DNA of 59,654 nt from Thermodesulfobacteriales bacterium (GTDB lineage Bacteria > Desulfobacterota > Thermodesulfobacteria > Thermodesulfobacteriales > Thermodesulfatatoraceae), in the NCBI GenBank assembly GCA_026988575.1, contig JALSKZ010000032.1, positions 1 through 59,654 of the forward strand. Reading direction: 5' to 3'. Both the position numbers and the translations under genes were made by a program. The notes beneath the pieces were generated by a model. It ran no database searches. It saw nothing but the letters and a program-made list of their open reading frames with translations, and was not told where the DNA came from. Of this stretch, positions 6,118-8,280 are shown piece by piece; positions within the stretch are counted from its first letter, which is position 1; every line of letters starts with the position of its first letter.

Positions 6118-6146
6118 TTGACTTATTGATATTCTTCAATTATTTA
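6118..6146 (+). promoter_or_regulatory. Candidate sigma-70 promoter for the double-cubane operon
   Basis: The region after dnaE is AT-rich. TTGACT (6118-6123) matches the -35 hexamer at 5 of 6; 17 bases later TATTTA (6141-6146) is a weak -10. A start of transcription near 6153 would lie upstream of the GTG at 6180 but downstream of the TTG at 6126, which supports the later translation start. Only inspection, no experimental support. Confidence 0.4.
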
Positions 6147-6179
6147 AGCCTACGTCCTAAAAGGGTTAGGAGGTTTGGT

Positions 6180-7445
6180 GTGGGTTATGAATCCCTTTGG
6201 CAAAAATTAGGTCTAGATCTAGAGGCCCACGAGGGCCTACTAAATGGTCTTGGCAAGGTCTACGAACAGGTCTTTTTGGCGCAGAAAAATAGGCCTCAGG
6301 CCATGGAATACTTTGATCAGGTAGTGGGAAGTATTCATGGAGCGCGGGTTGAAGAGCTCTTTAAGGCCAAGGAAGAGTCTCGTCTGGTGGTAGGTACCTT
6401 TTGCGTCTTTGTTCCAGAAGAAATTGTATGGGCGGTAAACGGCATATGTGTGGGGCTTTGTGCTGGTGCCGAAGTAGGTTTTGAGCAAGCTGAAGAATTA
6501 TTACCCCGCAATCTCTGTGCCCTTATTAAGGCCTTTTTTGGTTTTAAGCTGGCGCGGGTATGTCCGTATGTGGAGATCTGCGACTTTTTGGTGGGAGAGA
6601 CCACTTGTGACGGCAAAAAGAAGGCCTACGAGATATTTAATTCATTAAAAAAGACCTATGTAATGCATGTGCCGCAAAAGAAAGATGAGGAAAGCTTAAA
6701 GTTGTGGCTAAATGAGGTAAGGCGTTTCAAGGAAGAAATAGAAAGGGCTTCGGGTAGAGAAATTTCTGTAGCCGAACTAAAAGAGGCCATTGAGCTTATC
6801 AATCGCCGCAGAGAGGCCTTAAATCGTCTGAATGAGCTGCGTCGCGCTGATCCGCCTCCTATCTCTGGTTTAGATACTTTGCTCATCAACCAAATCGCCT
6901 TTTACGATGATCCGGTACGCTTTACCACTAAGGTGAATGAATTATGTAGCGAGTTAGAAGAGCGGGTCAAAAAAGGCCAGGGAGTCTGTCCGAAGGGCAC
7001 ACCTAGAATTATTGTTTCTGGTTGTCCTATGGCCATCCCCAACTGGAAGATACCTTATATCATAGAATCTGCAGGGGCCGTAATTGTGGGCGAAGAATCC
7101 TGTGTAGGTCGTCGTAATACTAGAAATCTCGTCGAGGTTTCTTCCTCCACCGTAGATGGCCTCGTAGAAAATATAGCCAATAGATACATGGGAATAGATT
7201 GTGCTATTTTTACGCCTAATGTAGAGCGAGCCGAAAACCTGAAAGAGATGGTTTCAGAATTGTCTGCTCAAGGGGTAGTTCATTATAGTCTGAAATTCTG
7301 TGACCCCTATACCATCGAAGTTCACCACATGGATAACGCGGTATCTTCCTTGGTGCCCACACTCAGAATCGAAACGGACTATAGTCAAGAAGATATGGAA
7401 CAATTACGTACTAGAATAGAGGCGTTTCTCGAACTATTGAAATGA
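6180..7445 (+). CDS. Double-cubane cluster protein (HgdB/BcrBC-like, 2-hydroxyacyl-CoA dehydratase superfamily)
   Basis: 421 residues. Related to the subunits of 2-hydroxyacyl-CoA dehydratases but with the features of double-cubane cluster proteins, a family in which an 8Fe-9S cluster carries out very low-potential reductions (acetylene reduction was shown for a Carboxydothermus member). Visible cysteines: C128 and C134 in CPYVEICDF, C143 in GETTCDG, C282 in SGCPM, C308 in GEESCVGRR; the SGCPM/EESC signature is typical of this subfamily. Start: GTG at 6180 has AGGAGG ending 6 bases upstream; a TTG at 6126 in the same frame has no ribosome-binding site. The stop overlaps the start of the activase gene (ATGA). 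The physiological substrate is unknown; no CoA-transferase or second dehydratase subunit is adjacent, which argues against classic hydroxyacyl-CoA dehydration. Confidence 0.8.
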   Translation: MGYESLWQKLGLDLEAHEGLLNGLGKVYEQVFLAQKNRPQAMEYFDQVVGSIHGARVEELFKAKEESRLVVGTFCVFVPEEIVWAVNGICVGLCAGAEVGFEQAEELLPRNLCALIKAFFGFKLARVCPYVEICDFLVGETTCDGKKKAYEIFNSLKKTYVMHVPQKKDEESLKLWLNEVRRFKEEIERASGREISVAELKEAIELINRRREALNRLNELRRADPPPISGLDTLLINQIAFYDDPVRFTTKVNELCSELEERVKKGQGVCPKGTPRIIVSGCPMAIPNWKIPYIIESAGAVIVGEESCVGRRNTRNLVEVSSSTVDGLVENIANRYMGIDCAIFTPNVERAENLKEMVSELSAQGVVHYSLKFCDPYTIEVHHMDNAVSSLVPTLRIETDYSQEDMEQLRTRIEAFLELLK

Positions 7446-8242
7446 TAATAGTCGGCATTGATATTGGTTCTCGTTCTATAAAAAGCGTGGTCTTAAAAGA
7501 CGGGGTCTTAGAGGCGACTACATGTATAGAGACTACGTATGAACCCAAAGAACAAATAAGGCAATTATTATCTGGTCTACAATACGATTGTTTAGTAGCC
7601 ACGGGTTACGGACGTTATTTGGTTCGTGACGACTTTGGGGCCGAAGTAATCACCGAAATCAAGGCCCATGCCTTGGGGGTGCGTTATTTCTTTCCAGAGG
7701 CGCGCACTATATTAGATATTGGGGGACAAGACACCAAGGCCATAGCCCTTTCTCCAGAAGGTACTGTGGTTCGGTTTGAGATGAATGATCGTTGTGCGGC
7801 AGGTACAGGTCGCTTCCTTGAGGTTATGGCCCGGGCCTTGGGGGTTGAGATTGCAGGACTTGCGGACTTGGCCTTGGCGTCCTCAGAGGCCGCACCCATT
7901 AGCTCTCTCTGTACGGTGTTTGCAGAAAGTGAGGTCATAGGCCTTATCAGCCGTGGTCAAAGGCGAGAGATCATTGCCAAGGGTATAATCCTTTCCATTG
8001 CCAAGCGATCTACGGCCCTGCTTAAGAGGGTAGGCCTTCAGGCCCCGGTAGTTTTCACCGGAGGCGTGGCCTTAAACAAGGCCCTAGTGGAGACCTTGGA
8101 GAGACTTTTAAATCTCTCTTTATGGGTCCCTAGAGAGCCCCAAATTACCGGAGCCCTTGGAGCGGCTTTATCAGTCTGGAACACCAGGGCCGGGTTAGGG
8201 AGCCGGTGCTCCCCCAGGGCTGCAAACCCTGAGGAGCCCTGA
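7442..8242 (+). CDS. Acyl-CoA dehydratase activase-type ATPase (BadF/BadG/BcrA/BcrD family), DCCP reductase
   Basis: 266 residues of the ASKHA-fold ATPase family that uses ATP hydrolysis and a bridging 4Fe-4S cluster to inject one electron into a partner such as HgdB or a double-cubane protein. Motifs: phosphate-1 loop GIDIGSRSIKS, DIGGQDTKAI, C118 in NDRCAAGTGRF and C157 in SSLCTVFAE (the two Cys that hold the dimer-bridging cluster), and the GGVALN adenosine motif. Start ATG overlaps the stop of the partner gene, so expression is coupled. The protein is expected to end soon after GALGAALSVWN; the last roughly 18 codons and the stop lie inside the selC-like tRNA gene, so the C-terminal tail is encoded by tRNA sequence. 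Confidence 0.88.
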   Translation: MIIVGIDIGSRSIKSVVLKDGVLEATTCIETTYEPKEQIRQLLSGLQYDCLVATGYGRYLVRDDFGAEVITEIKAHALGVRYFFPEARTILDIGGQDTKAIALSPEGTVVRFEMNDRCAAGTGRFLEVMARALGVEIAGLADLALASSEAAPISSLCTVFAESEVIGLISRGQRREIIAKGIILSIAKRSTALLKRVGLQAPVVFTGGVALNKALVETLERLLNLSLWVPREPQITGALGAALSVWNTRAGLGSRCSPRAANPEEP

Positions 8243-8280
8243 AAAAGGGACTTGGTTGGTTCAACTCCAACCCCGGCCTT
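8187..8280 (+). tRNA. tRNASec-shaped tRNA with GCA anticodon (selC*-like tRNA-Cys)
   Basis: Cloverleaf drawn by hand. Acceptor: 8188-8194 pairs with 8272-8278 (7 Watson-Crick pairs), with a possible eighth G-U pair 8187/8279. D arm: six-pair stem 8198-8203/8208-8213 closing a four-base CGGT loop, a hallmark of bacterial tRNASec. Anticodon stem CAGGG/CCCTG (8215-8219/8227-8231) with loop CTGCAAA; anticodon GCA at 8222-8224 reads UGC (Cys), not the UCA of selC. A long variable arm lies at 8232-8254 (stem 8237-8240/8246-8249, extendable with one bulge). T stem 8255-8259/8267-8271 with loop TTCAACT. The discriminator is T by either pairing, the CysRS identity base. CCA is not encoded, unlike the other two tRNAs here. 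Minor tRNA-Cys species mimicking tRNASec are known in deltaproteobacteria; this appears to be one, overlapping the activase CDS by 56 bases. Confidence 0.88.

Follow-up and report, generated by a model that had tools for sequence, protein, structure and literature searches.

A tRNASec-like cysteine tRNA beside a double-cubane reductase and activase gene pair, and its recurrence among selenium genes

Introduction

The window analysed here, a 59,654-nt stretch of DNA from a Thermodesulfobacteriales bacterium, carries a tRNA gene that looks like tRNASec, bears a cysteine anticodon and overlaps the end of an activase gene. What is such a tRNA for, and does the overlap have a part in its function? 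An earlier note on the sequence had placed it among minor tRNA-Cys species that mimic tRNASec and had proposed that its processing cuts the operon mRNA, coupling the tRNA to a redox system. A rare class of this kind, selC* tRNACys, has been published (Mukai 2017, as reviewed in PMC7609411); its most striking feature is an 8/4 acceptor/T branch with a bulged A51a, the bulge itself being dispensable (PMC7609411). These tRNAs insert cysteine at selenocysteine (Sec) UGA codons, a role posited for selenium scarcity (PMC9437257, PMC7609411). The features of the locus are as follows.

6126-7445, + strand: double-cubane-cluster-containing anaerobic reductase, first gene of the pair (NF040772, 473.2 bits); its TTG start is uncertain
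7442-8242, + strand: acyl-CoA dehydratase-type activase of the BadF/BcrA ATPase family (TIGR00241, 246.9 bits)
8188-8279, + strand: selC*-type (tRNASec-like) tRNA-Cys with GCA and U73 and without CCA (ARAGORN, Rfam, our own covariance model and covariation)
8188-8242, + strand: region shared by the activase frame and the tRNA, not conserved in relatives
8222-8224, + strand: anticodon GCA (ARAGORN and sequence)
8279, + strand: discriminator U73, identical in all six closest sequences

A tRNASec-like cysteine tRNA with a conserved fold

ARAGORN called a tRNA-Cys(GCA) at 8187-8280, and the Rfam tRNA-Sec model (RF01852) matched positions 8188-8278 with 61.7 bits (E = 3.8e-10), above its gathering score of 47. 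Folded alone, the tRNA formed a cloverleaf of -48.2 kcal/mol (z -2.5). The traits first noticed by eye were borne out: a D stem of six pairs (GGGAGC/GCTCCC) with a CGGT loop, a long variable arm, a 5-bp anticodon stem with the cysteine anticodon in the loop CTGCAAA, a T at 8279, and no encoded CCA. The long acceptor branch that had been listed with them stood only in part. Acceptor and T stems together make 12 bp (7+5, or 6+6 in the minimum-free-energy fold), short of the 13 bp of tRNASec; the six close sequences carry A or T at position 8, facing C, and so lack the eighth acceptor pair that tRNASec has.

Our covariance model, built from these six sequences, scored the window's tRNA at 101 bits, level with its relatives, and recovered related tRNAs in other phyla, among which the type of branch varies. 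An alignment of 38 distinct related sequences had 93.6% of its pair cells paired and two-sided changes at 25 of the 28 pairs; because it had been made to fit the structure, the fairer comparison is with controls in which the partners were slid by one column, where 57-60% were paired. These results confirm that the selC* tRNA at 8188-8279 is a genuine tRNA whose fold is conserved with strong covariation.

With bacterial tRNASec (selC) the window's tRNA shares the 6-bp D stem, the 4-nt D loop, the long variable arm and the Rfam match, but differs in GCA for UCA, U73 for G73 and 12 bp for 13 bp. Since tRNASec identity calls for UCA (or a recoding variant) and the SerRS base G73, it was ruled out. 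The genome itself (G000) encodes a true tRNASec(UCA) with G73 and CCA (C1:253-345, 80.7 bits) and two ordinary tRNA-Cys(GCA), both with U73 and CCA, as well as one SelB and one CysRS; the co-occurrence with ordinary tRNA-Cys and SelB that had been proposed as a check was thus found in G000. The acceptor start GGC is common to selC* and the ordinary tRNA-Cys, and tRNASec starts with GGA. The CysRS frame (L055, G000:C36:35142-36518) has 774 aa, ~300 residues more than the cysS model.

We file the window's tRNA as a selC* tRNACys, a member with a variant branch, on the strength of its body, identity bases and genome context; the class named at the outset was the right one. With the published members, which occur in Thermodesulfobacteria and other anaerobes, it has in common a tRNASec-like body, U73, GCA and a normal tRNASec alongside, here together with ordinary tRNA-Cys. 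Unlike them it has 7+5 pairs and not a clean 8/4 branch with A51a, which we tolerate because the bulge is reported to be dispensable and the branch type varies in the related set, and it lies behind a double-cubane reductase/activase pair. It also lacks the SelB*/CysS* partner of the selC* tRNAs of Desulfobacterales and Syntrophobacterales, in which a second selB or cysS stands beside the tRNA; in G000 none was found there, and the single SelB and CysS lie on other contigs. The class has reportedly been named tRNAReC, by Vargas-Rodriguez in 2018.

Gene neighbourhoods of selC*

Both genes of the pair exceed the curated cut-offs of their models (350 for NF040772, 125 for TIGR00241), in agreement with the double-cubane activase proposed earlier as the tRNA's neighbour, and the reductase is the only one of its kind above cut-off in G000. 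Scanning the operon for promoters and terminators yielded no usable signal above chance.

Further selC* tRNAs were sought by tRNA sequence and fold, not by neighbourhood, in 30 relatives, in 395 genomes of the phylum and by a pattern scan of contigs (28 loci), and 26 selC* genomes, some of them incomplete assemblies, were examined further. The reductase or activase adjoins selC* in 8 of these 26, so the association between the tRNA and the double-cubane activase does recur. The tRNA stands ~28 nt upstream of the reductase start in G018, G023, G029 and G409, behind the activase in G000, G087 and G122, and behind the reductase in a spirochaete MAG (G414), where the reductase gene is apparently split between two contigs. 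Selenium genes (YedE, Se/S carrier, YedF) or genes of the same cluster adjoin selC* in eight others, and G122 (L094) has both kinds of neighbour, in the order activase-selC*-YedE-TusA-Se/S carrier. The arrangements include YedE-TusA-EF2568 desulfurase-Se/S carrier-selC*-YedF-SelD (G411), selC*-Se/S carrier-kinase-YedE-TusA (G067), YedE-selC*(UCA)-Se/S carrier-kinase with U73 (G271, L105), selC*-YedE-TusA (G050), YedE-Se/S carrier-kinase-selC* with a reductase ~3.6 kb further (G206), and YedE beside selC* in three Firmicutes (G415, G416, G417), some of the family labels resting on similarity searches with recovered proteins. SelB stands beside selC* in G419 and G420, as published for selB*. No reductase/activase, selenium-gene or SelB neighbour was found in the other 8 of the 26 (G004, G021, G117, G301, G410, G412, G413, G418).

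At a chance of 0.8% per genome, adjacency in 16 of 26 genomes has P ~1e-27 and in 9 of 18 lineages P ~6e-15; the 0.8% (a generous figure) and the rough collapse to 18 lineages are our own approximations, and some of the genes counted were chosen only once the neighbours had been seen, so that the order of magnitude alone counts. Co-occurrence at the level of the genome says less. SelB was found in 25 of the 26 selC* genomes, and a second tRNASec, with UCA, in most of them; since SelB occurs in 89% of the phylum, its co-occurrence with selC* is uninformative there, and with the reductase in 33% of the phylum its co-occurrence is weak evidence, leaving only adjacency as informative. The linkage to the gene pair is thus real and recurs, but the genes that keep turning up beside the tRNA are selenium genes, and this speaks for selenium supply more than for redox in general.

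Several observations on individual loci may be recorded here. Two selC*-like tRNAs carry UCA but U73 (L105 in G271, L108 in G301). In G411 (UASB270; L087, L163), where selC* lies in a full selenium cluster, a true UCA tRNASec is present and no SelB scored over threshold; given that tRNASec, we dropped the absence of SelB as evidence against SelB use, and it may be an assembly gap. In a Bacillota MAG (L085), a frame whose product looks by eye like a LysR-family regulator ends 69 nt before a selC*-like tRNA.

An operator-like palindrome, TATTNCNGNAATA, precedes selC* exactly in L073, L079, L102 and L109 and with one mismatch in L103. It has the form T-N11-A, the spacing of LysR-type sites, and lies in the selC* promoter region; it is present in Thermosulfurimonas dismutans S95 too, although the reductase is missing there. 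Neither the window's reductase nor reductases lacking selC* have it upstream, and a shared regulon is not claimed.

The reductase and activase as selenium genes

The reductase/activase pair also keeps company with selenium genes at loci of its own. In four genomes of the same taxonomic order as G000 (L199-L202, in G013, G012, G016 and G011) selD lies directly upstream of reductase-activase, and no selC* was detected in these genomes; in L207 (G128) SelB follows the activase. Within the phylum, YedE, YedF, SelD or SelB lies within 1.5 kb in 8 of 30 reductase loci. An earlier trace of this connection is visible in the STRING table for YedE, YedF and DUF3343, where the partners include an activase and 2-hydroxyglutaryl-CoA dehydratase subunits (Lin 2015, PMC5322559). 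The same three families recur beside selC*, whereas the consulted passages of that paper make no mention of a tRNA-Cys, and of this set the window has no more than the reductase/activase part next to its tRNA.

Discussion

On balance, we regard the locus as one part of a selenium module, with the tRNA as cysteine fallback, in preference to a redox switch that cuts its own mRNA. We propose, with a probability of about 0.58, that the selC* tRNA-Cys serves as a cysteine fallback for Sec UGA codons and is co-expressed with selenium acquisition genes. We infer its expression, charging and delivery as follows. The tRNA would be co-transcribed with reductase-activase and processed out, CCA being added afterwards. 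The single CysRS would charge it with cysteine, as suggested by U73, GCA and the GGC acceptor start that it has in common with ordinary tRNA-Cys. SelB could then deliver it to UGA/SECIS, its body mimicking tRNASec, so that, as in published work on relatives, Cys would replace Sec when Sec-tRNA is scarce. The last element is comparative: the gene is found among genes of selenium metabolism, the reductase/activase pair being one component of such neighbourhoods, and these make co-expression with selenium acquisition genes the likely logic. Placement beside genes for selenium uptake and handling fits a fallback that is switched on with them.

The main difficulties for this reading are the 12-bp branch and the GCA anticodon, and the absence of SelB* and CysS* from G000 also counts against it. 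A 12-bp branch suits EF-Tu, and E. coli SelB prefers 13 bp (PMC10778597). GCA should pair with UGC/UGU and not with UGA, so that reading UGA would need tolerated mispairing. Such mispairing at UGA is said to be tolerated in a Desulfotomaculum relative, according to work by Vargas-Rodriguez in 2018. Nevertheless, comparison of the sequences favours UGA as the probable target over ordinary Cys decoding, since a UCA form with U73 occurs in an equivalent neighbourhood (G271). More tentatively, and with a good deal of doubt, the reductase/activase, YedE, YedF, Se/S carrier and SelD might form one selenium-supply module that carries its own Cys-fallback tRNA, a single programme for seeking selenium and reading Sec codons as Cys; further out, Cys-tRNA(selC*) might be a substrate of the module and not a decoder.

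The same two difficulties would be no obstacle to a minor Cys isoacceptor that works with EF-Tu at UGC/UGU codons, in an operon without a tie to Sec: GCA, U73 and a branch of EF-Tu length are what such a tRNA would have. We nonetheless consider it unlikely, as two ordinary tRNA-Cys already cover UGC/UGU, covarying changes preserve the tRNASec body in different phyla, equivalent neighbourhoods also hold UCA forms, and the genes next to the tRNA are selenium genes. The misfit between anticodon and UGA, together with a close linkage that recurs with Se/S carrier, TusA, YedF, YedE, kinase-like and reductase genes, might instead speak for a role of Cys-tRNA(selC*) outside decoding, for example as a donor of the amino acid or of sulfur to an enzyme of a selenium/sulfur module; but none of the neighbours was recognisable as a candidate tRNA-using enzyme, and fallback decoding accounts for the linkage too, so that we find such a role quite improbable.

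The overlap invites a third alternative, a cis switch in which excising the tRNA truncates the activase frame and sets the yield of tRNA against that of activase. The last 55 nt of the activase frame lie inside the tRNA (56 if position 8187 is counted, as in the earlier note), with the TGA stop in the variable arm. A model of this kind has been published for selC nested in or overlapping selB, where the tRNA likewise overlaps the 3' end of the frame and contains its stop (Mukai 2021, PMC8124441), but here the host gene is the activase and relatives do not share the overlap. It is absent in L073, L079, L102, L103, L076, L094 and L109: four relatives carry the tRNA upstream of the reductase, two have it abutting the activase stop, and T. 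dismutans S95 keeps the tRNA although no reductase was found. Moreover, the activase domain (PF01869, residues 4-243) ends before the tRNA, so cutting would spare the domain and lose the stop codon. Since the domain ends at residue 243 and the tRNA-encoded tail is not conserved, the overlap looks like the loss of an earlier stop and not like a conserved device. It is a local compaction rather than a mechanism; the cis switch is very improbable, and the earlier proposal that processing cuts the operon mRNA and so couples the tRNA to redox finds no support as a conserved design, the overlap being seen only here. Finally, a decayed or unexpressed copy is hardly credible in spite of the coding-frame overlap and the missing CCA (encoded by the tRNASec and both ordinary tRNA-Cys of G000), since all stems are intact, the score of 101 bits is as high as that of relatives, and the T arm, anticodon and U73 are kept.

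A literature search that took in reviews of selC* but not the primary papers turned up none that links selC* tRNACys to YedE or to the reductase; as evidence of novelty this is weak. To our knowledge, double-cubane reductases have no known natural substrate, and the linkage to selC* offers a lead for them, namely selenium metabolism. As far as reviewed, selC* had a proposed role, the insertion of Cys at Sec codons in selenium shortage, but no natural regulatory context. Such a context is now offered by its recurrent position in clusters of selenium genes, which makes the proposed role testable in culturable anaerobes.
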